From Bacteroidales bacterium (GTDB taxonomy: Bacteria > Bacteroidota > Bacteroidia > Bacteroidales > UBA932): 44,186 bases of DNA. This document shows positions 20,068 through 42,485 of this stretch, one piece after another (the first letter of the stretch is position 1; each line of letters starts with the position of its first letter). The position numbers were made by a program, and so were the translations under genes. Under the pieces are notes generated by a model, which had not been told where the DNA came from, searched no databases, and saw only the letters and a program-made list of their open reading frames with translations. Location of the stretch: assembly GCA_012798805.1 (NCBI GenBank), contig JAAZMM010000020.1, forward strand, positions 1-44,186, read 5' to 3'.

Positions 20068-21291
20068 ATGGATTTAAGGCAAATAAAAGATAAATATCAG
20101 ATTATCGGCAAGGATCCGGGGCTTGACAGGGCTATTGAAGCGGCGGTAAATGTAGCTTCGACCGATCTTTCCGTGATTGTGACCGGCGAAAGTGGTGTTG
20201 GAAAGGAGTATATTCCGAGGATTATCCACGATCACTCTCCCCGCAAACACAGGCGCTATATCGCAGTCAACTGCGGAGCGATTCCTGAAGGGACTATAGA
20301 TTCTGAGCTTTTCGGCCACGAAAAAGGTGCTTTTACGGGTGCGGTGGATAGCCGTAAAGGTTATTTCGAAGAGGCGGATGGCGGTACGATATTCCTCGAT
20401 GAGGTTGCCGAACTGCCGATAGGCACTCAGGTACGTCTGCTCAGGGTTCTTCAGAACGGCGAGTTTATAAGAGTGGGATCCTCCAAGGTGCAGAAGACGG
20501 ATGTGAGGGTGATAGCAGCTACCAATATTCAGCTCGACCATGCGGTGGCAACCGGAAAATTCAGGCGTGACCTTTACTATCGTCTGAATACGGTGCCGAT
20601 CGTGGTGCCTCCGCTCAGAGAGCGCAAAGGAGACATCCGTATGCTTTTCCGTAAGTTTGCAAGCGATTTTGCAGATAGATATACTATGCAGGCAGTGCGC
20701 CTCGATGAGGAAGCGATGGAGCTTCTCGAGAACTATCAGTGGCCGGGAAATGTCCGCCAGCTCAAGAGTGTTACAGAGCGGATATCGATTATGGAGACCG
20801 ATCGTTTTATTACCGCCGAGGTCTTGTCGGGTTACCTTCCGAAGGATAATTCTTCTCAAATGCCGGTGCTCTCTTCCGGTTACTCCTTTGATAGTTGTTC
20901 GGACCCTTACAGGGAATTTCTCATTAAGCTCTATGCACAGTATCAGCAGCTTAGGATAGAGGTGGACGAGCTGACCCGTCTTGTCAAGGGAAGTGCTCCG
21001 ATCGCACAAGTGCATCCGGTTACAACTATCGATCACACCCATATGCTTACGGAGGGTTCCGGGGTGCGGGGTACGGGTTCCGAGTTGCAGGGTCCGGTGA
21101 TTGAGGTTGAGGAGGTGGAGAATGTTGCCGAACCTCAGGAAGAGATGCCACTTACTCTGGATCAAATTACCCGTAAGGCCATTGCAGAGGCACTGCAGCG
21201 TAATGGTAACAATCGCGAAAAGGCTGCGGCGGAGCTTGGAATCTCCGCACGAACCATTTACAGGAAGATCAAAGAATTTAATTTGGAATAA
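20068..21291 (+). CDS. Sigma-54-dependent transcriptional activator, no N-terminal receiver
   Basis: This 407-residue AAA+ activator starts almost directly with the ATPase. Walker A GESGVGKE is at 40-47, the sigma-54-contacting loop GAFTGA at 87-92, Walker B GGTIFLDE at 105-112, and an Arg-finger region follows (FRRDLYYRLN). A Fis-type helix-turn-helix closes the protein (NREKAAAELGISARTIYRKI). There is no receiver, GAF or PAS domain, so control must come from another protein, a C-terminal signal or the ATPase itself. The linker at about 331-343 (GSGVRGTGSELQG) is encoded by a piece resembling the dispersed repeat. It leads into lptE, a TPR-like gene and secG, with gaps of 7-16 bases. Confidence 0.93.
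   Translation: MDLRQIKDKYQIIGKDPGLDRAIEAAVNVASTDLSVIVTGESGVGKEYIPRIIHDHSPRKHRRYIAVNCGAIPEGTIDSELFGHEKGAFTGAVDSRKGYFEEADGGTIFLDEVAELPIGTQVRLLRVLQNGEFIRVGSSKVQKTDVRVIAATNIQLDHAVATGKFRRDLYYRLNTVPIVVPPLRERKGDIRMLFRKFASDFADRYTMQAVRLDEEAMELLENYQWPGNVRQLKSVTERISIMETDRFITAEVLSGYLPKDNSSQMPVLSSGYSFDSCSDPYREFLIKLYAQYQQLRIEVDELTRLVKGSAPIAQVHPVTTIDHTHMLTEGSGVRGTGSELQGPVIEVEEVENVAEPQEEMPLTLDQITRKAIAEALQRNGNNREKAAAELGISARTIYRKIKEFNLE
21059..21095 (+). repeat. Repeat-like segment inside the sigma-54 activator gene (copy 6)
   Basis: The segment reads GGGGTGCGGGGTACGGGTTC and continues CGAGTTGCAGGGT. The same words (GGGGTGCGGGGT, CGAGTT, TGCAGGGT) make up the G-rich half of the intergenic copies. Its length leaves the reading frame intact and encodes the linker before the DNA-binding domain. 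Confidence 0.5.
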
Positions 21292-21299
21292 GGGACAAA

Positions 21300-21818
21300 A
21301 TGAAAAAAATATTAAAAACAGTACTTCCTCTTGTCGCAATTTTTGCCATATCATGTCTGGTTACAGGTTGCTGGCTTTATTCCTTTAGCGGTACCTCCAT
21401 CCAGCCGGATGTCAAAACAATATGTATAGAACCTGTTCAAAACAGGGCCCTCAAGGTAAACCCTACACTTGCAAACTCTCTTTATGAGGCACTTTCGGAT
21501 AAATATCGTAAACTTACACGTTTGGAGCAGGTGGAAGATGCCGGAGATCTCTATGTGCTTTGTACCATAGAGGGATATGATGTCTCTGCGACCGCAATTA
21601 CCGCAGATGAGGTGGCTGCTAAAAACCGCCTCACAGTCTCGGTGAAGGTAAAGTTTGTGAATGAAAAGTACCCTGAGGAAAATTTTGAACAGAATTTTGC
21701 AGGATATGAGGATTATGATTCCGAACGCTCGCTTGACGAAGTCGAAGCGACGCTTTGCGACACGATACTGGAAAAAATCGTTGAAGATATATTCAATGCA
21801 ACCGTTGCCAACTGGTAA
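21300..21818 (+). CDS. LptE-like lipoprotein
   Basis: This 172-residue protein has a lipoprotein signal ending LVTGC (Cys24). The mature part follows the Bacteroidota LptE-family pattern: YSFSGTSIQPDVKTICIEPVQN, then NPTLANSLYEALSDKYRK and a beta-rich remainder. LptE plugs the LptD barrel that delivers lipopolysaccharide to the outer surface. The position between a sigma-54 activator and secG is, from memory, conserved in Bacteroidales, which supports the call. It starts 8 bases after the activator stop. Confidence 0.82.
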   Translation: MKKILKTVLPLVAIFAISCLVTGCWLYSFSGTSIQPDVKTICIEPVQNRALKVNPTLANSLYEALSDKYRKLTRLEQVEDAGDLYVLCTIEGYDVSATAITADEVAAKNRLTVSVKVKFVNEKYPEENFEQNFAGYEDYDSERSLDEVEATLCDTILEKIVEDIFNATVANW

Positions 21819-30924: not shown

Positions 30925-30933
30925 TAACTTTGT
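30925..30933 (+). promoter_or_regulatory. -7 box of the rocD-ctlX-TonB receptor operon
   Basis: TAACTTTGT fits TAnnTTTGY and lies 42 bases before the rocD ATG, the only good match in the 204-base gap. No further promoter-like gap occurs until 39347, so it probably drives six genes. Confidence 0.5.
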
Positions 30934-30975: not shown

Positions 30976-32205
30976 ATGGTTATTACTAAAAACGCTCAAA
31001 AATTTATAGATCAGGAAGCAAAATTTGGTGCCCACAATTACAAACCGATGCCGGTAGTCCTTTCAAAGGGAAAAGGTGCATTCGTATGGGATGTTGACGG
31101 AAAAAGATATTTTGATTTTTTGTCAGCCTATTCGGCTGTCAATCAGGGTCACTGTCACCCCAAAATCGTAAAGGCTCTCTGTGACCAGGCAGAGGAGATT
31201 TGTCTCACCTCAAGAGCATTTTACAATGATTGTCTCGGCCCTTATGAAGAGTTTGCAACGAAGTTTTTCGGTTATGACAAGCTTCTTCCTATGAATACAG
31301 GCGCTGAAGCGGTGGAAACCGCCCTTAAACTTGCACGTAAATGGGGTTATGTAAAGAAGGGTATTTCTGAGGACAAAGCCATTATCGTAGTTTGCGAAGG
31401 CAATTTTCATGGTCGCACGATAACTGTAGTATCAATGTCCACAGATCCCGAATCGTATGGTCAGTATGGACCTCTGACTCCCGGTTTTATAAAGATACCT
31501 TACAATGATGTTGCTGCTCTTGAGGATGTTCTCGAGAAGCATGGCAAAGATGTGGCCGCTTTTCTCGTAGAGCCCATTCAAGGGGAGGCAGGTGTAGTGG
31601 TGCCCGATGAGGGTTATCTCAAGAAATGTTATGATGCCTGCAAGCGCCACAATGTGCTTTTTGTTGCTGATGAGATACAGACCGGTATCGCCCGCACAGG
31701 CAAAATGATCTGCTGTGAGCATGAAAATGTCCGCCCCGATATTCTCATTCTTGGAAAATCTCTTTCAGGTGGCGTCCTGCCTGTTTCGGCTGCCTTGGCT
31801 GATGATGATGTAATGCTCACCATCAAGCCCGGTCAGCATGGTTCTACTTACGGAGGATTTCCTCTTGCATCAAAAGTTGCCATAGCAGCTCTTGAGGTGG
31901 TAAGGGATGAAAAACTTTCGGAAAAGGCCGAATATCTTGGTAAGATTTTCAGAGATGAGCTTTCCAAATTCAAATCGCCTTTTATCAAAAAGGTGCGCGG
32001 AAAAGGTCTTCTCAATGCTGTGGTAACCACTCCCGTCAATGGTAAAGAGGCCTGGGATATCTGTCTTAAAATGGCGGAATATGGTCTTATCGCAAAGCAA
32101 ACACATAGACATATCATCCGTTTCGCTCCCCCTCTCGTGATTACCGAAGAGGAGCTTCGCCAGGCAATCGAGATCATTAAAAAAGCATTTAGAGATCTGG
32201 AGTAG
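30976..32205 (+). CDS. rocD: Ornithine--oxo-acid aminotransferase
   Basis: This 409-residue class III PLP aminotransferase moves the delta-amino group of ornithine to 2-oxoglutarate, giving glutamate semialdehyde. The PLP lysine is Lys261 in [13 protein letters not shown]. The [12 protein letters not shown] block binds the cofactor ring, and the N-terminal [14 protein letters not shown] with Tyr22 and the [18 protein letters not shown] stretch fit ornithine aminotransferase over acetylornithine enzymes. It is followed by ctlX after 4 bases, which supplies ornithine from citrulline. Together they would feed glutamate or proline synthesis. Confidence 0.94.
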
Positions 32206-32209
32206 TTCT

Positions 32210-33136
32210 ATGGCGGGTGTTTCTTTCAGACAGACATCGGGGCGTGTTCTTATGGTACGTCCCTGTTCTTTTGGTTTCAATGTTCAGACCGCGACCAATA
32301 ATGCTTTCCAGCGACGCGGTTTTGAATCAGGAGCTCAGGAGGCTGCATTAAAGGAGTTCGATGCCTTTGTGGCCCTTCTTCGTTCGCATGGTGTGGTGGT
32401 GGATGTGATAGAGGATACTCCGCAGCCCCATACACCTGACTCTATTTTTCCAAACAACTGGTTTTCCACTCACTCGGACGGCACAATGGTGCTTTTCCCG
32501 ATGTGTGCTCCAAATCGGCGTTTGGAACGCAAACAGAGTGTGATGGATCACCTTATTGGTACTTTTGATATACGCAATATTTATGATCTGTCACCCTATG
32601 AGTCTGAAGAGAAGTTTCTTGAAGGGACCGGCAGTATGGTTATTGACCGCGAAGCGGGTATGGTATATGCTTGCCGTTCGCCCCGTACCGACGAGGATGT
32701 GCTGAAGGAATTTTGCAAGCTGTTCGGATGGGATTATTTCCTTTTCGATGCCCTGGATGCGGCAGGGAATGCCATTTATCATACCAATGTAATGATGTGT
32801 GTGGGGAGCCGTTTGGCGGTGGTTTGTCTGGAGAGCATCAGAGATGCTTCGGTCAGAGAGGCACTTGTGCGTTCGCTGGGTGAGAGGGATATCGTGGATA
32901 TTTCGTTTGGGCAAATGGAGAGTTTTGCGGGTAATATGCTCGAGTTGCAACCCCGTGGTAAAGAGAGGCCGCTATTAGTAATGTCGGCAGCTGCCGCAAA
33001 GTCGCTCCGTCAGGAGCAATTGCTTCTGATTGAGTCGCATTGTGATATAGCTTCTCCGGATCTGAATATTATTGAGGCCAATGGCGGAGGATCCGCCCGT
33101 TGTATGCTTGCGGAGATTTTTTATGAAGAAGATTAG
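32210..33136 (+). CDS. ctlX: Citrulline hydrolase of the CtlX type
   Basis: This 308-residue guanidino-group-modifying (pentein-fold) enzyme belongs to the CtlX family, which hydrolyses citrulline to ornithine, CO2 and ammonia. Catalytic elements are visible: Asp in TPDSIFPNNWFSTHSDG, the Glu in FLEGTGSMV, the His in YHTNVMMCVG, and the nucleophile Cys298 in GGGSARCMLAEIF. The last block is near the C-terminus as expected. It lies between rocD and an exported protein it overlaps by 14 bases. Arginine or agmatine deiminase is less likely on overall pattern. Confidence 0.86.
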   Translation: MAGVSFRQTSGRVLMVRPCSFGFNVQTATNNAFQRRGFESGAQEAALKEFDAFVALLRSHGVVVDVIEDTPQPHTPDSIFPNNWFSTHSDGTMVLFPMCAPNRRLERKQSVMDHLIGTFDIRNIYDLSPYESEEKFLEGTGSMVIDREAGMVYACRSPRTDEDVLKEFCKLFGWDYFLFDALDAAGNAIYHTNVMMCVGSRLAVVCLESIRDASVREALVRSLGERDIVDISFGQMESFAGNMLELQPRGKERPLLVMSAAAAKSLRQEQLLLIESHCDIASPDLNIIEANGGGSARCMLAEIFYEED

Positions 33137-33833
33137 GTTATTATTTCTGATCACCCTGCTGTACTCTTCCTTCTGTGGAGCAGAGGCTCAATCCACAATT
33201 TACGAAAAATATGCGCAGGAAGCGGGTGATGCGCTTATGATCTATCGCGGGCGCAAGGCTATGCACTACTCTTTTCAATTTAACGGGACCTTCTACTGGG
33301 AGAGATCGGAGTTTATGAAGGGAGATGTGGTTTATAATGGCAAAAAATATAAGGATCTTTTGCTCAATATTGATGCAAATCTACAGCTGCTGATGGTAAA
33401 ACATCCTGCCAATGCTCTTACCGTGGTGCTCAATCCTACCTGCCTGACCTCATTTAATATTGGTGAAAAGCAATTTATCAATCGTGATGAGGGCATTTTT
33501 GAGGTAATCCGGGATGGAAAAGTTGCTCTTTTGCGTCAGATTACCAGAAAATTTTCTCAAAACATACATTTGAAAAATGGAGAGGAGATAGGCTATTACG
33601 ACCCCGATTTCAAAGAGAATGTATTCCATTATTTTAAATATGAATCCACATTATATTGTCTCAAAGATGATGTATTGACCCCAATTAAGAGCGGTCGCGA
33701 TATCCTTAATTACTTCCCTTATCACAAAAGGCAGTTAAGGGTATTGATCAGAAGGGCCAATATTTCTCCCAAAAGAAACCTTGAAGAGTATTGTTTAAGA
33801 GTAATCGGTTATGTTGAAAGTACGCTCGAATAG
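33123..33833 (+). CDS. Conserved exported protein upstream of a TonB receptor
   Basis: This 236-residue protein has a signal peptide (MKKIRLLFLITLLYSSFCG, cut near AEAQ). The rest is beta-rich with the string GKKYKDLLLNIDANLQLLMV, a Phe-Ile-Asn-Arg turn, then YYDPDFKENVFHYFKYEST and a Lys/Arg-rich C-terminal helix pair ending in SPKRNLEEYCLRVIGY. I recognise this as a Bacteroidota family of unknown function usually beside TonB receptors. The ATG at 33123 is preferred over upstream starts as it gives a proper signal peptide. It overlaps ctlX by 14 bases and the receptor by 23, so translation is probably coupled. Confidence 0.8.
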   Translation: MKKIRLLFLITLLYSSFCGAEAQSTIYEKYAQEAGDALMIYRGRKAMHYSFQFNGTFYWERSEFMKGDVVYNGKKYKDLLLNIDANLQLLMVKHPANALTVVLNPTCLTSFNIGEKQFINRDEGIFEVIRDGKVALLRQITRKFSQNIHLKNGEEIGYYDPDFKENVFHYFKYESTLYCLKDDVLTPIKSGRDILNYFPYHKRQLRVLIRRANISPKRNLEEYCLRVIGYVESTLE

Positions 33834-36486
33834 GCTGGCATTATTCTTTGTTTTGTCATTCCTTGTTATGTGTGGCTCGGGAGGGCTTTTGCATGCCCGG
33901 CAGACTAATATTCGTTTGAATCATATCTCTATCGACTCATTGGTCAATTTTGTTAGGGGCATTCACCCTAAGACCTACTTTATCTCCGATGGCCTCGACC
34001 AGGCAAATTATACGGTTGAGGCTCCGCGTGAAAAGATACTCGAAAGTATTATTTCCTTGCTTAAGGAGAAGGGCTATGCCATTACATATTTTGACGATGG
34101 GATCTATATTTTGAGGACAGTTGGATTTGCAACCGAACTCCCCATTGGCTATTTCAATACGAAAGAGCCGGTGCAGCGTGATACCTCCATCTATCTCGAT
34201 CAATCAGGTTACAAGTTTACATTTGCCAATAAGGTCTATGAGATAGGAGAGTCAAATAGTGGTGTTACGGGCAATGTATATCTCAGCGGCCATATTACCG
34301 ATGTGGCTACCGGTGAGCCTTTGGTGGGTATTTCAATCCTTGAGGAGAGTACCGGTATCTATGCCCAGAGTGATGCGACCGGATTTTATAGAATATTGTT
34401 GCCTGTGGGTGAGCATATTCTCAAATTTTCGGGTTATTCACTTGAGGATCTGGATCTCAATGTCCTGCTTCACGATGGCGGATCTCTCGATATTACCATG
34501 AAAGAGAAGGTTTTTGCCCTAAAAGGAGCTATTATCACTTCCGAGGGGATGGCCAACCATCGCAGCAGTCGTATGGGTATAGAGAGAGTTCGTGTCGAGA
34601 ATATTAAAAAAGTGCCCGTGGTTTTCGGTGAGGCCGACCTTTTAAAAGTGATAATGACGCTTCCCGGTGTTAAGTCCGTAGGTGAGGCATCCGGCGGATT
34701 TAATGTGCGTGGAGGAGCCAATGATCAAAATCTCATTCTTTTCAATGAGGGCACGATTTATAATCCGAACCACCTTTTCGGTCTCTTTTCCGCCTTCAAT
34801 ACCGATGTCGTAAGCGATGTAGAGCTCTTCAAAAGCTCCATTCCGGCTGAGTATGGCGGAAGAATATCCTCTGTGCTCGATATCAGGGGCCGTGAGGGCA
34901 ATAGCAAAAAGATGGTGGGTTCGCTTGGTCTGGGGCTTCTTACAAGCAGATTTCATCTTGAAGGTCCTGTCAAAAAGGAGAAAAGTACATTTATCCTTGG
35001 TGGCAGAACTACCTATTCCGACTGGATTTTGGGGCTGCTTCCCAAGACCAGTGAATATTCCAATGGTACAGCTTCGTTTTATGACCTCAATGCACAACTA
35101 AACCACAAATTTAGTCCGCGCAATTCTCTCAATTTTTCCGGCTATTTTTCAAGGGACAGATTTAGCTTTACCTCCAGTACCATCTACAGATATCACAACG
35201 CCAATTTTTCCGTGAGGTGGAGAAATCACTTCAGCAGCCGCCATTCTCTGGCTCTTTCGGCAGGATATGATAAGTATGGCTACAGCGTTGAGGAGAGCCA
35301 AAATGCATGGAGTGCATTTACCCTCTCCAGTAACATCAGGCAAGGTTTTTTAAAGCTTAAATTCCAGTCACACGTTACTGCTAAACATACGTTTTCTTAT
35401 GGTTTCAATACTACGGTTTATGGTATAGAGCCGGGCAACATGCTTCCTTTTAAGGATTCCTCATCAGTTAACCCACATTGTTTGGTAACGGAAAGAGCTC
35501 TGGAGGGTGCACTTTTCGTCAATGATACTTACAAGCCAACGGATCGTCTCTCTTTTGATTTCGGATTGAGGCTTTCCGGCTTTTCAAGTTTCAATACCCG
35601 CAAATTTTACGGCGCTCCCGAACTGCGTCTCTCCGGAAAGTACTCATTTCTCCCCAATCTCTCCATTAAAGCGGGATTCAACAGCATGACGCAGTATATC
35701 CATAAGATCTCCAATGCCGTCTCCATTTCTCCCACCGATACGTGGAAGCTTGCTGACGCCAATATTGAACCACAGAGGGGCTGGCAGGCAGCGGCAGGAC
35801 TCTATTGGACGGTATTTGACCATCAGGTGGATCTCTCTCTCGAGGGATACTACAAGATGATGCACCACTATCCGGACTATAAGAGCGGAGCCATCCTCGA
35901 GATGAACGAAAATCTTGCAGAGGATCTGGTTCCCACAAAGGGTAAGGCTTATGGAGCTGAATTTATGGTCAAAAAGCCGGGCGGAAAACTTAACGGCTGG
36001 CTCTCATATACCTATTCAAAGTCAATGTTGCGGGAAATGCAGGACAGAGGTCTTGAGACCATCAATAATGGAGAGTGGTATAATGCAGCGCATGATAAAC
36101 CGCACGATGTTAAATTGGTGGCCAATTATAAATTTACTCACAGATACAGTCTATCCGTCAATCTTGATTACTCTACAGGTCGTCCGGTGACGGTCCCCGT
36201 AGCAAAGTATTACTATGGTGGCGGCTATCGTCTCTACTATTCCGAGCGCAACGGTTATCGCGTACCCGATTATTTCCGTCTCGATATAGCTATGAATATT
36301 GAGCCCAGCCACTATCTCCGTCAGTTATCACATCTTTCCGTGACCTTTGGAGTCTATAATGTCACCGGTCGCAAGAACCCCTATTCTGTGTTTTACACCC
36401 GAAACAGCGCAGGAGGTGTAATCAGTAATATGCTATGCGTTTTTGCGGTGCCTATACCATATATCAACCTCAACCTCAAATTCTAA
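33811..36486 (+). CDS. TonB-dependent receptor with STN and carboxypeptidase-regulatory-like domains
   Basis: This 891-residue outer-membrane transporter has, in order: a signal peptide (1-29), an STN (secretin/TonB short N-terminal) domain (about 31-103), a carboxypeptidase regulatory-like beta sandwich (about 157-231, GHITDVATGEPLVGISILEE), a plug (about 263-362, PGVKSVGEASGGFNVRGG and AEYGGRISSVLDIRG), and a beta barrel to the C-terminal Phe. STN domains contact regulators such as FecR, yet no FecI/FecR pair is present. The plug lacks obvious siderophore-type clues. The next gene is DUF4249, which may replace a SusD-like lid. Its position after rocD-ctlX suggests a nitrogen-rich substrate; that is inference. 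Confidence 0.92.
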   Translation: MLKVRSNRLALFFVLSFLVMCGSGGLLHARQTNIRLNHISIDSLVNFVRGIHPKTYFISDGLDQANYTVEAPREKILESIISLLKEKGYAITYFDDGIYILRTVGFATELPIGYFNTKEPVQRDTSIYLDQSGYKFTFANKVYEIGESNSGVTGNVYLSGHITDVATGEPLVGISILEESTGIYAQSDATGFYRILLPVGEHILKFSGYSLEDLDLNVLLHDGGSLDITMKEKVFALKGAIITSEGMANHRSSRMGIERVRVENIKKVPVVFGEADLLKVIMTLPGVKSVGEASGGFNVRGGANDQNLILFNEGTIYNPNHLFGLFSAFNTDVVSDVELFKSSIPAEYGGRISSVLDIRGREGNSKKMVGSLGLGLLTSRFHLEGPVKKEKSTFILGGRTTYSDWILGLLPKTSEYSNGTASFYDLNAQLNHKFSPRNSLNFSGYFSRDRFSFTSSTIYRYHNANFSVRWRNHFSSRHSLALSAGYDKYGYSVEESQNAWSAFTLSSNIRQGFLKLKFQSHVTAKHTFSYGFNTTVYGIEPGNMLPFKDSSSVNPHCLVTERALEGALFVNDTYKPTDRLSFDFGLRLSGFSSFNTRKFYGAPELRLSGKYSFLPNLSIKAGFNSMTQYIHKISNAVSISPTDTWKLADANIEPQRGWQAAAGLYWTVFDHQVDLSLEGYYKMMHHYPDYKSGAILEMNENLAEDLVPTKGKAYGAEFMVKKPGGKLNGWLSYTYSKSMLREMQDRGLETINNGEWYNAAHDKPHDVKLVANYKFTHRYSLSVNLDYSTGRPVTVPVAKYYYGGGYRLYYSERNGYRVPDYFRLDIAMNIEPSHYLRQLSHLSVTFGVYNVTGRKNPYSVFYTRNSAGGVISNMLCVFAVPIPYINLNLKF

Positions 36487-37679
36487 TGAAAGTAAGAAGA
36501 TCAATACTAATATTTCTCTTTTCGGTTCTCCTGATTGGGAGCTGTATCTATCCGTTTACACCGGAAATAGAGGATGTTGATGTTGGATTGTTGGTTATCG
36601 AGGGCGACATTCGCATCGGAGCTATGTCGCATATATATGTGCACTATAGCCAGCCGCTCGGCAGTATCGAAAAGCCCGATTATATTAGTGCCAATGTGTG
36701 GGTGGAAAGCGACAAGGGAGAGATAATAAGTGCCGGGTCTTTCAAGAATGGCGCCCATATCATCGATACCCGCGATCTTGATCCCAACAACTCCTATCGC
36801 CTCCATGTCAAACGCTATGGAGGCGGTTTGACCCGTGTCACGGCTAGTCATGCTCCTGCTTATGCAATTAATGATGAGTATGTAACCGACTGGCTGGATG
36901 TGCTCCATACTCCGGAGCTTGAGGATGTCATATTCAAAGTTGATGATATTGGAGAGAAAGTAACATTTCATGTCAGCACTACCAATCAGGATGATAATCC
37001 CTATTACAAATGGGACTGTATAGAAGATTGGGAATACACAGCTTACTATAATGCGACACATGAGTTTGTTCCCGGAGCAAACATTGTGAGAAGGATTGTG
37101 GGAGCAAACAATTATTTTTGCTGGGATAATGATGTAGTTTCCAAAATAATGATTGCCAGTACGGGAGCACTCAAAGAGAATCGTCTTGTAGAGCATCAAA
37201 TCTATGAACTTCCCTTCAGGAGCAAAAAACTTAGTTTTTTGTACTCTACTGAAGTAATCCAGAGTTCCATTTCGCGGGAAGCCTATATCTACTGGGAGGT
37301 AATGTCGCGCAACACGGAGCAGACCGGAGGTCTTTTCTCTCCTCAGCCTAGTGAGATCAGGGGCAATATCCACTGTGTAAATGATTCTACTAGGATAGTT
37401 GTTGGTTATATCTCCGCTTCAACGGTCTCCAGTAGCAGGGTATTTGTCTCCGTCCACGATCTTCCGAGGATGACTAGAGGCGAGGATTGCGGACCTCTCG
37501 TGGAACTCGTCATATCCGAGGGGTATTTTATGAGAAGGTATCACGAAATAGGTTACCGTATGATTTATTACGATCGGGAGGAGCAAAAGACCTTCTGGAC
37601 CAAGCAGCGTTGTGTTGACTGCACAACGAAGGGAGGAACAAAGGATAAGCCGGACTTCTGGCCTAATGCACATTTATAA
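36486..37679 (+). CDS. DUF4249 family lipoprotein
   Basis: This 397-residue protein has a lipoprotein signal ending LIGSC (Cys20). The DUF4249 pattern is clear: an N-terminal beta sandwich (FTPEIEDVDVGLLVIEGDI), ...YRLHVKRYGGG..., a central aromatic-rich part, and a C-terminal CVDCTTKGGTKDKPDFWP. Such proteins are encoded beside TonB receptors in Bacteroidota and are thought to be surface partners, but the biochemical role is unknown. The start overlaps the receptor's TAA by one base (TAATG). Cys residues in the CVDC pair may form a disulfide or bind a ligand. Confidence 0.88.
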   Translation: MKVRRSILIFLFSVLLIGSCIYPFTPEIEDVDVGLLVIEGDIRIGAMSHIYVHYSQPLGSIEKPDYISANVWVESDKGEIISAGSFKNGAHIIDTRDLDPNNSYRLHVKRYGGGLTRVTASHAPAYAINDEYVTDWLDVLHTPELEDVIFKVDDIGEKVTFHVSTTNQDDNPYYKWDCIEDWEYTAYYNATHEFVPGANIVRRIVGANNYFCWDNDVVSKIMIASTGALKENRLVEHQIYELPFRSKKLSFLYSTEVIQSSISREAYIYWEVMSRNTEQTGGLFSPQPSEIRGNIHCVNDSTRIVVGYISASTVSSSRVFVSVHDLPRMTRGEDCGPLVELVISEGYFMRRYHEIGYRMIYYDREEQKTFWTKQRCVDCTTKGGTKDKPDFWPNAHL

Positions 37680-37682
37680 AAG

Positions 37683-39347
37683 ATGAGAAGAGATTCTAAT
37701 ATACTTGTAATACTAGCAGCCTTATTGCTGCTGATATCTGCTCCATCGTATGCACAGCGCGTGGAGCGAGTATGGTTTTCCACCGACAGGAGCCTATATG
37801 TGGCGGGAGAGCGGATATGGTGCTCGGCACTCTGTATGGATGTTGCTACCCGCACTCCCTCTGAGTTGAGCAGTATTGCATATATGGAGCTGCATTCTGC
37901 GTCGGGAGTGGCACATACGGCAAAAATTGCACTTATGGAGGGGCGTGGAGCAGGTTATTTAGACCTTCCCAATACTCTTCCTACCGGCAATTATCGTCTG
38001 ATTGCCTACACTTCGGCCAATCTCAATGAGCGTGGGTATGATTTTAATTCTTCTTTCAGCAGGGAAATTTCGATTTTCAATGTGCTGACAACTGCAAGGA
38101 GCGGGGAGGTGAAAGTAGTCGGGGAGAGTGAATATTCCACCGCAGCAAAAGCGGCATCTAAGTCAAAACCGTGTGCAGATGTTCAAATCAATGTTATTCC
38201 GGAAACAGGATGTTCTCATCAGATTCCTATCAGAATAGAGAACCGTACCGATGAGGAGATAACCTTCTCTCTCTCGATATTCAATGATGACGGTATCCTG
38301 GTAAGCCGTGCAAAGGGACCGGAGGAGTTTCTGGAGATGCTTCCCAATGCGGATGAAGTACTCTTTGATCGTAACCGTATTCCGGAGTATGAAGGAGAGA
38401 TCATTACTGCCAAATGTGCAGAAAAAACAGCCTATATTTCGGCTATTGGCAACTATTCGGACATATATATAGCGGAGAGTGCCGATGATGGAACGGTTCG
38501 TTTCTTTACAAGCAACATCTATGGAGATGTAGAGTTGGTTGGCAATATCACTTCAATTGAGCGGCCATTTGTCGAGCCGCAGCTCGAGGCTCCATCTCCT
38601 CTGTTGATCAGTGAATCGCTTAGGGATCGCCTTCAGTTCAGAGGTGCTGCAATGCAGATCGGAAGACGCTTTGATTACGAAATTCTCTATGAATTGCTTC
38701 CTAGAAGGGAGAATCCCCTCTTTGGCGACGAGCACATCACCTATCGTCTTGACGATTATACCAGGTTTCCCTTGATGGAGGAAATTATCATCGAATTTAT
38801 TCAAGAGATACGTGCCCGAAAAAAAACTGATGGCACAAGAGATTTACAGGTCAGGGTTGAGGATGTATTTCGCAGACCTCAATTTTCGCAAGATGCATCC
38901 CTGATGATGGTGGATGGAGTACCGGTGCTTGATCACGAAATCATCTATAGATACGACCCTCTGCTGATAGAATCAATAGATATTTATCCCTATGCTTACT
39001 TCATAGGCAGCAGGCAGTTTGACGGTATTGTCAATATTAAGACATATAAAGGCACCATCCCTTCGCTTACCTTAGGTTCCGAAGTGCGTATTATGGAGTT
39101 CCAGGGAGCTGCCATTCCAATGGCATATACCTGTCAAAATCTGGCTGAAAATGCAGACTATCCCGATTACAGACAGACTCTCTATTGGCATCCTCTGCTC
39201 ACTGCCGGAGCTGAGGGTACAACAGATTCTTCAACTACCATCATCTGTAACACTCCTGACTATAGCGGAACATTTTCAATAGTGCTGGAGGGCATCACTT
39301 CTTCAGGCCGTCCGGTTTTTTGTAAAAAAACTTTCAAAGTGCAGTAA
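37683..39347 (+). CDS. Exported protein with MG2-like and barrel-less TonB-plug-like domains
   Basis: This 554-residue protein has a signal peptide (about 1-24). Residues 28-135 resemble an alpha-2-macroglobulin MG2 sandwich of the Bacteroidota type (VWFSTDRSLYVAGERIW and LPTGNYRLIAYTS). The middle is beta-rich and unrecognised. Residues about 396-460 resemble a TonB receptor plug: LMMVDGVPVLD (VDG at 410-412) and FDGIVNIKTYKG, but no barrel follows; the protein ends 95 residues later with a beta-rich tail. It lies 3 bases after the DUF4249 gene. A docking or gating role beside the receptor is possible. No transcription terminator is evident before the str promoter. Confidence 0.75.
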   Translation: MRRDSNILVILAALLLLISAPSYAQRVERVWFSTDRSLYVAGERIWCSALCMDVATRTPSELSSIAYMELHSASGVAHTAKIALMEGRGAGYLDLPNTLPTGNYRLIAYTSANLNERGYDFNSSFSREISIFNVLTTARSGEVKVVGESEYSTAAKAASKSKPCADVQINVIPETGCSHQIPIRIENRTDEEITFSLSIFNDDGILVSRAKGPEEFLEMLPNADEVLFDRNRIPEYEGEIITAKCAEKTAYISAIGNYSDIYIAESADDGTVRFFTSNIYGDVELVGNITSIERPFVEPQLEAPSPLLISESLRDRLQFRGAAMQIGRRFDYEILYELLPRRENPLFGDEHITYRLDDYTRFPLMEEIIIEFIQEIRARKKTDGTRDLQVRVEDVFRRPQFSQDASLMMVDGVPVLDHEIIYRYDPLLIESIDIYPYAYFIGSRQFDGIVNIKTYKGTIPSLTLGSEVRIMEFQGAAIPMAYTCQNLAENADYPDYRQTLYWHPLLTAGAEGTTDSSTTIICNTPDYSGTFSIVLEGITSSGRPVFCKKTFKVQ

Positions 39348-39370: not shown

Positions 39371-39402
39371 TTTGTAAATCGGATTATTTGTTCTATCTTT
39401 GC
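39371..39402 (+). promoter_or_regulatory. Promoter of the rpsL-rpsG-fusA-rpsJ operon
   Basis: TTTG (39371-39374) and TATCTTTGC (39394-39402) are 19 bases apart, an excellent match to the Bacteroidota consensus. The transcript would start near 39406-39410, about 50 bases before rpsL. Confidence 0.75.
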
Positions 39403-39455: not shown

Positions 39456-39836
<381 letters not shown>

Positions 39837-39868
39837 CCATTATTTTTAACTATTAATTTTGAGAAAAA

Positions 39869-40345
39869 ATGAGAAAAACGAAGCCTAAAAAGAGGATTCT
39901 ACTTCCTGATCCCAAGTATCACGATGTACAGGTTACCCGTTTCGTGAATAACTTGATGTTGCAGGGGAAGAAGAGTATCGCTTATTCTATTTTTTACGAT
40001 GCAATTGACATCATCGGCGAGAAGATGAAAGATTCTGACAAGGCTCCTCTCGAAATTTGGAAAAAAGCATTGGAAAACGTTACTCCGCAGGTTGAAGTAA
40101 AAAGCCGCAGAGTAGGTGGTGCGAACTTCCAAGTACCGACAGAGTTGCGTCCGGAAAGAAAAATCTCGATCAGTATGAAGAATATGATCAATTATGCTCG
40201 TAAACGTTCCGGCCGCTCAATGTCTGAGAAGTTGGCTGCAGAAATAATGGCTGCATATAATAATGAAGGTGCAGCATTCAAGAGAAAAGAAGATATGCAT
40301 AGAATGGCTGAGGCTAACAAGGCCTTTGCTCACTTCCGTTTCTAA
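39869..40345 (+). CDS. rpsG: 30S ribosomal protein S7
   Basis: This 158-residue S7 organises the 3' domain of 16S rRNA. It shows the family's start ([19 protein letters not shown]), [20 protein letters not shown], the [19 protein letters not shown] block and [20 protein letters not shown] followed by [10 protein letters not shown]. In E. coli S7 represses its own operon; whether it does here is unknown. It lies 32 bases after rpsL. Confidence 0.98.
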
Positions 40346-40364
40346 TCAGGTATATGTACATTAG

Positions 40365-42485
40365 ATGGCAAGAGATCTAAAATATACAAGAAACATTGGT
40401 ATTATGGCTCACATCGATGCCGGTAAGACCACTACATCGGAGCGTATCCTCTACTACACGGGTAAGACCCATAAGTTGGGAGAGGTGCACGAAGGTGCTG
40501 CTACCATGGACTGGATGGTTCAGGAGCAGGAGAGAGGTATTACCATCACATCGGCTGCTACCACCGCTTTTTGGAATTATAATGATCAGCAGTACCAGAT
40601 CAATCTTATAGATACTCCGGGTCACGTTGACTTCACCGTTGAGGTGGAGCGTTCACTTCGTGTTCTTGATGGTACGATCGCCACTTTCTGTGCGGTAGGT
40701 CGCGTACAGCCTCAGTCGGAGACCGTATGGCGCCAGGCAGACAAGTATCGCGTACCCAAGATTGCCTATGTCAATAAGATGGATCGAGTAGGAGCCGATT
40801 TTCTTGCTGTGGTGGAAGAGATTAACGAGAAGCTCGGTGCAAGAGCCATTCCCATAGCGCTTCCTATCGGAGCAGAGGATAATTTCGATGGAGTTGTCGA
40901 TCTTATCTCAAGAAAGGCCTATATCTATAATTTGAGCAAGGACCTTGTTAATTATGAGATAAAAGAGGTGCCCGAAAATATGGTAGCTGAAGTTGAGGAG
41001 TGGCGTGGCAAACTGATTGAATCGGTTGCCGAATACGATGAAGAGATTCTCGAGAAGTTTTTCGAAGATCCCGATGCAATCACCGAAGAGGAGATCATCA
41101 ATGCTCTCAGAAAAGCTACTATTGATATGGCAGTGGTTCCCACTACTTGTGGCTCTTCCTTCAAAAACAAAGGAGTACAATTCCTTCTTGATGCCGTTAT
41201 GCGTTATCTCCCTTCTCCTCTGGATAAGGGCGAAATTAAAGGAACGGACCCACGTACCGGTGCTGAACTTATCCGTAAGTACGACACTACGGAACCCTTC
41301 TGCGCATTGGTGTTCAAGATTGCTACTGACCCCTTTGTAGGAAGACTGGCATTTATCAGAGCCTATTCGGGCAAACTGGATGCCGGTTCCTATGTACTCA
41401 ATACCCGTTCCGGTAAAAGGGAACGTGTTGCAAGGCTTTACCAGATGCACTCCAATAAACAGAATCCCATCGATTGCGTTGAGGCGGGAGATATTTGTGC
41501 TGCCGTAGGTTTCAAGGAGTTGCGTACGGGTGATACTATTTGTCGTGAAGATAAACCGATCATTCTGGAGTCAATGACATTCCCGGATCCGGTTATCGGT
41601 TTGGCTGTAGAGCCTAAGACTCAAAAAGATCTCGACAAACTCGGTGTTGCTCTTGGTAAGCTTTCAGAAGAAGATCCTACTTTTACCGTTCAGTCTGATG
41701 TTGAGACCGGCCAAACCATAATCAGCGGTATGGGCGAGCTCCATCTTGATATCATTGTGGATCGTTTACGTCGTGAATTTGGCGTTGAGATCAACCAGGG
41801 TGCGCCTCAGGTTAATTATAAAGAGGCCATCACCGGTTCCTATCAACACAGAGAGGTATTTAAGAAGCAGACAGGCGGTAGAGGTAAATTTGCTGATATA
41901 ATTGTCGAAATATCCCCTGCAGATGAGGGCGTGACAGGACTTCAGTTTATCGACGAGGTGAAAGGTGGAAATATTCCCCGTGACTTTATCCCCGCTGTCG
42001 AGAAAGGCTTCAAGTCAGCAATGTCAAATGGTGTTTTAGCAGGTTATGAATTGACATCCATGAAGGTAAGACTTTTGGATGGCTCTTATCACTCTGTCGA
42101 TTCAGACTCTCTTTCGTTTGAGATCTGTGCCCGCCAGGCATACCGTAAGGCACTTCCAAAATGTGCGCCTGTGCTGATGGAGCCCATTATGTCTCTTGAG
42201 GTTGTTACTCCCGAGGAATATATGGGTGACATTGTCGGTGACATTAACCGTCGCAGGGGCCAGATTGTAGATATGGATTCGAAAGGCAATGCTAGAATTG
42301 TCAAAGCCAAGGTTCCCCTCTCCGAGCAGTTTGGTTATGTTACCGTCCTAAGAACACTCTCTTCCGGACGCGCCACAGCCACAATGGAGTTTTCGCATTA
42401 TGCGGAAGTTCCTGAAAACATAGCAAAGGATGTCGTTGAAAGACATGGCGGACGCAGGTTTTATGACGATGATGATGACGAATAA
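40365..42485 (+). CDS. fusA: Elongation factor G
   Basis: This 706-residue canonical translocase has intact GTPase loops: [10 protein letters not shown] (P-loop, Asp18), RGIT (57-60), DTPGHVDF (83-90, catalytic His87) and NKMD (137-140). Domains II-V follow, ending in an acidic DDDDDE tail. It catalyses GTP-dependent movement of tRNA and mRNA on the ribosome. The contrast with the second EF-G at 1664-3781 shows that the latter's substitutions are not lineage-wide. It starts 19 bases after rpsG. Confidence 0.98.

Follow-up and report, generated by a model that had tools for sequence, protein, structure and literature searches.

Six consecutive genes on the + strand, between positions 30976 and 39347 of a 44,186-nucleotide stretch from a Bacteroidales bacterium of the UBA932 lineage (assembly GCA_012798805.1, contig JAAZMM010000020.1; the whole stretch is called the window here), encode RocD, CtlX, an exported protein, a TonB-dependent receptor, a DUF4249 lipoprotein and an exported MG2-domain protein, in that order. 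We read this run as two separate functional blocks that abut each other and are both resident beside the ribosomal genes rpsL-rpsG-fusA, a reading that does not require the cassette to be a dedicated importer of compounds with citrulline or arginine (probability roughly 60%). The first block, rocD-ctlX, would serve citrulline catabolism. The second, called the cassette below, comprises the remaining four genes and is a unit of its own that is widespread in Bacteroidota.

The independence of the cassette follows from its surroundings in other genomes. A receptor alignment detected at least 595 loci in named genomes, and among the 80 that scored best, rocD, carbamate kinase and rpsL occur near the cassette in a single locus (L072) and ctlX in none, while no flanking family is found in more than five loci by a rough clustering. 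The flanks covered up to 9 kb, many of them ended by contig ends, and the scan may omit the window's own genome and its nearest relatives. Where the two were compared, the receptor of L072 has the same sequence as that of a genome of the window's genus (G029). A reading made earlier from the sequence alone (the sequence-only reading) had proposed that the receptor set imports a citrulline- or arginine-containing compound, a link that was to fail if homologous sets elsewhere showed no tendency to sit with rocD or ctlX. Apart from L072, the flanks examined contain no rocD, ctlX or carbamate kinase gene (arcC) in 79 of the 80 loci.

Approached from the other side, CtlX was found at E 1e-40 in 13 of 393 genomes of the order, of which 12 score over the cut-off and three belong to the window's family. 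One ctlX place was taken per genome; a second, weaker one in G250 was left out. Around the ten ctlX loci outside the family, rocD is adjacent in five and the cassette in none. The recurrent unit is the rocD-ctlX pair, of which the four-gene cassette is no part. The proposed tie to citrulline or arginine compounds is weak at best: it recurs within the genus, where 26 of 33 cassettes stand beside ctlX or carbamate kinase genes, but not outside the lineage. It is weakened rather than closed, since this neighbourhood does recur and the enzyme types are exchanged there. For a dedicated citrulline import by the cassette outside this lineage there is little support.

Gene content and arrangement of the run

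The run and its immediate surroundings comprise the following features.

30925..30932, + strand: candidate Bacteroidota -7-like promoter element TAACTTTG upstream of rocD (presumed motif)
30976..32205, + strand: rocD, ornithine aminotransferase, 409 amino acids (TIGR01885, 682 bits, curated cut-off 378; PF00202)
32210..33136, + strand: ctlX, putative citrullinase, 308 amino acids (NF046062, 390 bits, curated cut-off 334; FPNN and HTN motifs)
33123..33833, + strand: exported protein, 236 amino acids, first cassette gene (homologues directly upstream of the receptor gene in most related loci)
33811..36486, + strand: TonB-dependent receptor, 891 amino acids, with CarbopepD_reg_2, plug and barrel domains (PF13715, PF07715, PF00593; receptor alignment)
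36486..37679, + strand: DUF4249 lipoprotein, 397 amino acids, probable receptor partner (PF14054, 3e-33; lipobox LIGSC; structure model)
37683..39347, + strand: exported MG2-domain protein, 554 amino acids, last cassette gene (MG2 at 27.9 bits, below the Pfam cut-off of 32.8; MG2 in aligned proteins)
39371..39401, + strand: TTTG-N19-TAnnTTTG promoter-like element before rpsL, where the unit likely ends (pattern scan, presumed motif)
39456..42485, + strand: rpsL-rpsG-fusA, ribosomal-gene anchor (names read from translations; relatives have homologues in this position after the cassette)

The order and spacing of the six genes proved to be as the sequence-only reading had described them. A gap of 4 bases separates rocD from ctlX, overlaps of 14 and 23 bases join ctlX to the exported gene and the latter to the receptor gene, the receptor and DUF4249 genes share one base (TAATG), and 3 bases precede the MG2 gene. 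The open reading frame of the DUF4249 gene is listed from 36435; the start that is followed by the signal and lipobox lies at 36486. This arrangement is not a product of chance, as rocD, ctlX and the cassette occur in the same order in nine genomes of the genus, the window's among them, and rocD through the MG2 gene is likely a single transcription unit in the window's lineage. The idea of one promoter for the whole run fared less well. It is plausible but not established, because TAnnTTTG, which together with TTTG we take to be the Bacteroidota promoter motif, is also present on the + strand within ctlX (32560), the exported gene (33565), the receptor gene (34218) and the DUF4249 gene (37113). 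The full TTTG-N19-TAnnTTTG pattern has five matches in the window versus a mean of 1.19 in shuffled sequences. A sigma-70 promoter scan, which is unsuited to Bacteroidota, was of no help.

Both enzyme assignments hold, with scores over the curated family cut-offs. In the translation of ctlX, FPNN and HTN stand in place of the deiminase aspartates, and both motifs are reported for this family (PMC9007349). Judged by family, CtlX would convert citrulline to ornithine and RocD would take ornithine on to glutamate semialdehyde. The evidence for the citrullinase is mutant fitness, and biochemical proof is still called for in that paper (PMC9007349). The window's pair agrees with the pathway described there in its family score, its motifs and the adjacency of an ornithine-consuming gene; it differs in that this partner is rocD and not ocd or aruG, and in the outer-membrane cassette that follows (PMC9007349). 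Searches of the PDB with the CtlX, DUF4249 and receptor sequences returned no matches for any of the three.

Relatives were searched in 118 genomes including the window's, with DUF4249, CtlX, the exported protein, RocD, the MG2 protein, carbamate kinase and arginine deiminase as queries. The family accounts for 71 of these genomes and the window's genus for 40 of the 71, the window's genome (G000, 85% complete) counted in. Arginine deiminases resembling TIGR01078 were found in 60 of the 118 genomes, none over the model cut-off. A route from arginine through citrulline to ornithine is likely in the window's clade, because such a match is present in four of the six closest ctlX relatives (G005, G014, G017, G038). 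In the window's genome itself, at 85% completeness, the first step was not seen: the TIGR01078 arginine deiminase, PAD_porph and ProC (TIGR00112) were searched and none was found, and two OTCace-domain proteins are present. The ctlX gene of G005 (L046 8857-9783) is broken by an in-frame stop, which is either a true loss or an assembly error.

The outer-membrane cassette

Complete cassettes are the rule among the 80 named loci, 61 of which have all four genes labelled. The remainder comprises loci without a recognised exported gene (n = 11), with only the exported gene and receptor (n = 3), with only DUF4249 and receptor (n = 2), without DUF4249 (n = 2) and without MG2 (n = 1), some of them at contig ends. 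A DUF4249 gene thus accompanies the receptor in 75 of 80 loci (61 + 11 + 2 + 1), which makes the two a conserved pair. The labels come from hidden Markov models built from related loci, by which distant DUF4249 proteins are missed (e.g., in L191). The cassette is spread over Bacteroidales, Chitinophagaceae, Hymenobacter, Pontibacter and others. This recurrence of a four-gene outer-membrane set from Bacteroides to Chitinophagaceae and Hymenobacter is a useful result in itself, with the cargo as a testable question. The whole cassette is repeated in tandem, with some copies truncated by the end of the stretch, in L039 (3588-15913), L040 (4187-18154), L062 (2466-15583), L158 (2657-15785), L070 and L078. 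Three to four DUF4249 genes lie in a row behind one receptor in L126 (3841-8547), L114 (4077-7673) and L139 (11329-14883), which belong to a Mucilaginibacter, a Hymenobacter and a further member of Bacteroidota; such rows may encode interchangeable caps for a single receptor.

Pfam reported no STN domain in the receptor, so the label 'STN-type' was not confirmed. SusCD and RagAB are uptake systems composed of a receptor and a partner lipoprotein. The window's pair shares this composition but differs from them in its score against the SusC/RagA model TIGR04056 (28.5 bits, cut-off 368) and in the lack of a SusD gene beside the receptor. The neighbouring lipoprotein matches PF14054 (DUF4249) only, in line with the earlier suggestion of a partner other than SusD. 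Its structure model (predicted local distance difference test, pLDDT, 91) is beta-rich with a weak resemblance to Ig/FNIII tandems: a fold search gave 33 matches at E <= 0.001, and the matches listed are tandems of the Ig/FNIII kind and ectodomains of receptors, none with a TM-score to the query above 0.21. By analogy with SusD and XusB, the DUF4249 lipoprotein probably caps its receptor from the outside. The XusAB siderophore system likewise pairs a TonB transporter that has a carboxypeptidase-like domain with a non-SusD surface lipoprotein, yet XusB is a DUF4374 beta-propeller (PMC13142918).

The sequence-only reading knew of no described system with this make-up, which has to be rejected for the pair of receptor and DUF4249. 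Such a pair was already proposed for BT2172/BT2173, a TonB transporter beside a DUF4249 protein in an operon conserved across dozens of genera (PMC11003636). The likeness to the window's pair is at the level of gene content. The accessible part of that paper, the only one to name DUF4249 in the literature searched, treats the transporter and DUF4249 pair and makes no mention of the exported protein, the MG2 protein or rocD-ctlX (PMC11003636).

For the last cassette gene, the label 'MG2' is fair and 'plug-like' is weak, since MG2 is found in 22 of 24 aligned proteins and a Plug domain in four of 24. When the MG2 protein and the receptor were compared by profile, no plug aligned. The exported protein of the window has no Pfam family. 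Its AlphaFold2 model reaches a mean pLDDT of 94, and a fold search found no solved look-alike (best E 0.12).

The ribosomal neighbourhood in genus and family

Presence and absence were set by E cut-offs, and in the fragmented genomes 'elsewhere' can mean the end of a contig. Within the genus, the exported gene occurs in 33 of 40 genomes. Directly downstream of the cassette lies rpsL in 27 of these 33; the contig ends first in five, and in G028 rpsL is on another contig, with cassette genes (L149). The upstream side is more variable. In nine of the 33 (G000, G005, G012, G014, G017, G020, G026, G036, G038), rocD-ctlX precedes the cassette on the same strand. In G026 and G036, a YfcC-like antiporter gene, whose 363 bits fall short of the cut-off of 500, is found upstream of rocD. 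Another 17 have carbamate kinase upstream on the opposite strand. In 16 of these, ornithine carbamoyltransferase is also visible (the stretch of G015 is cut), and 14 carry rocD on the same contig, no more than 5.4 kb from the exported gene. The idea that citrulline genes at this place are confined to ctlX genomes was consequently dropped. In the arginine deiminase pathway, the step from citrulline to ornithine belongs to the carbamate-kinase branch. The same step is thus found at the same place in these 17 genomes, while the window's clade has ctlX instead, which is predicted from its family to give no ATP. The locus thereby shows two routes for one catabolic step swapped at a fixed place. In several genomes of the genus, a gene for a small charged exported protein (L025 3222-3806 and relatives) stands beside ornithine carbamoyltransferase.

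The remaining seven of the 33 cassettes have no rocD, ctlX or arcC beside them. Their upstream gene is U32 in G002 and G010 and MATE in G016, G019, G022, G030 and G032, and the order within the cassette is altered in G002 and G032. More distant carbamate kinases occur elsewhere in G010 and G030, as does ctlX in G032, whereas G002, G016, G019 and G022 keep the cassette without ctlX or arcC anywhere found. U32 approaches the cassette to 0 (G002) and 23 (G010) bases and MATE to 27 (G016). A specific functional link drawn from spacing alone was rejected, as tight packing is no sign of shared function here when U32 and MATE also adjoin the cassette at small gaps. More generally, short intergenic gaps say little about a common function when the genes lie next to a ribosomal anchor.

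Eighteen other loci of the family were analyzed around rocD or ctlX, with genus g12 kept apart. The cassette is present in none of them, and rpsL adjoins rocD, ctlX or a YfcC-like gene in seven (G040, G042, G044, G049, G056, G067, G068). The rpsL-rpsG-fusA neighbourhood is a recurrent home of rocD, ctlX and YfcC-like genes across the family (L050, L163, L164, L170, L171, L192, L195). In g12 (G050, G069), rocD-ctlX is divergent from one of two tandem cassette copies, the YfcC-like antiporter gene sits between the copies and rpsL follows. Eight further cassette or receptor copies (L145, L146, L148, L150-L154) lack rocD, ctlX and arcC in the stretches examined; L145 and L151 are short whole contigs, and L151 may be part of the main locus of G039. 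In G051 (L051), ctlX is followed at a distance of about 2.5 kb by a receptor-like piece of an open reading frame, and none of the cassette genes scores over the threshold there.

A receptor tree of 57 rows was rooted on those of Chitinophagaceae and Hymenobacteraceae. It is the second of two trees; L149 and L152 were dropped from it and L072 was left out, whereas the first included all three. Those g12 copies that are located at rpsL form a branch beside the copies of the window's genus (support 86, not starred). Within the genus, G036 and G026, both with ctlX, are basal, then follows the window's clade, and the carbamate-kinase genomes are nested. This topology fits a single arrival of the cassette beside rpsL followed by inheritance, the carbamate-kinase route having taken the place of ctlX at a later point. 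The pattern has exceptions: L066 and G065, from outside the genus, fall among its rows on long branches.

Weighing the explanations

The adjacency of the two blocks is most likely due to both sitting next to the same ribosomal genes. On our preferred explanation, the citrulline-catabolic pair (assigned by family, with reactions predicted) and the uptake cassette, in which a DUF4249 lipoprotein would cap a TonB-dependent importer accompanied by exported and MG2 accessories, would have met since both adjoin rpsL-rpsG-fusA in the family. In genomes of the window's genus, rocD and ctlX are oriented towards the cassette and would have been packed with it into a tight, probably co-transcribed unit, and co-expression of the two blocks may benefit the cell. 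Several observations weigh against this explanation. Over the tree, nearness to rocD, ctlX or arcC (25 of 57 rows) requires six changes versus ten for rpsL (29 rows); the latter number is inflated by contig ends and tandem second copies, and still gives no support for rpsL as the firmer tie. The citrulline step is exchanged between rocD and the cassette (ctlX versus carbamate kinase with ornithine carbamoyltransferase), and ctlX (n = 29) and arcC (n = 20) never occur together in the 71 family genomes. In the genus, the exported gene is present in all 29 genomes with ctlX or arcC versus four of 11 without (Fisher p 2e-5; as in the tests below, kinship is ignored). In G050, the YfcC-like gene runs into one cassette copy (gap 16), and rocD-ctlX diverges about 70 bases from another. 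Outside the family, G442, from another family of the order, encodes a receptor resembling SusC and a lipoprotein resembling SusD, which begin 0.4 kb after ctlX and on its strand (L189 9833-16071), and in G147 a group of receptor, DUF4249 and CotH lies about 5 kb from a CtlX scoring below the cut-off (L191 12370-17885). The occurrence of receptor pairs near ctlX in two of the ten distant loci may be due to chance, because this broad class of receptor is abundant, the window's genome by itself having 21 CarbopepD_reg_2 matches. The row of receptor, DUF4249 and CotH-domain protein in G147 also shows DUF4249 with a different set of partners. When the DUF4249 gene serves as marker, the genus figures are 29 of 29 versus six of 11 (p 7e-4), and in the rest of the family the cassette occurs in seven of 20 genomes with ctlX or arcC versus one of 11 without (p 0.2). 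These co-occurrence figures allow a link of the cassette to citrulline inside the genus.

A rival explanation is a dedicated uptake and catabolism operon in this lineage, in which receptor and DUF4249 would import an arginine- or citrulline-containing compound, most likely peptides, and CtlX and RocD would degrade the citrulline. The tight packing, the recurrence beside citrulline genes in 26 of 33 genus cassettes, and the enzyme exchange at one spot together with the correlated presence speak for it, as do the YfcC-like genes upstream of rocD (G026, G036) or between cassettes (G050, G069) and, in two of ten loci outside the family, the receptor-lipoprotein pairs no farther than about 6 kb from ctlX. 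We nonetheless consider it doubtful: the cassette itself has no such association outside the lineage (one of 80 named loci, itself of this genus, and none of ten ctlX loci), four genomes keep it without ctlX or arcC, nearness is explicable by the rpsL neighbourhood, and neither TIGR01078 nor PAD_porph was found in the window's genome (85% complete), though a deiminase match exists in four of the six closest ctlX relatives. Likewise rather unlikely is a version confined to this rumen-associated Bacteroidales lineage, in which a common DUF4249-type TonB cassette would have been turned into a specialised importer for peptides rich in arginine or citrulline, and either CtlX or the pair of carbamate kinase and ornithine carbamoyltransferase could fill the intracellular citrulline step at a single conserved place. 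One further possibility is that the cassette would import any peptides and that the rocD-ctlX promoter would place it under amino-acid control with no substrate specificity. Its connection to varied upstream genes across genomes (ctlX, U32, MATE, YfcC-like) suits a general importer, yet U32 and MATE have no evident link to nitrogen, and we regard this as improbable.

Elsewhere in the window, two open reading frames of 407 and 426 amino acids (20068-21291, + strand; 20074-21354, - strand) overlap almost totally on opposite strands and probably represent one real gene.

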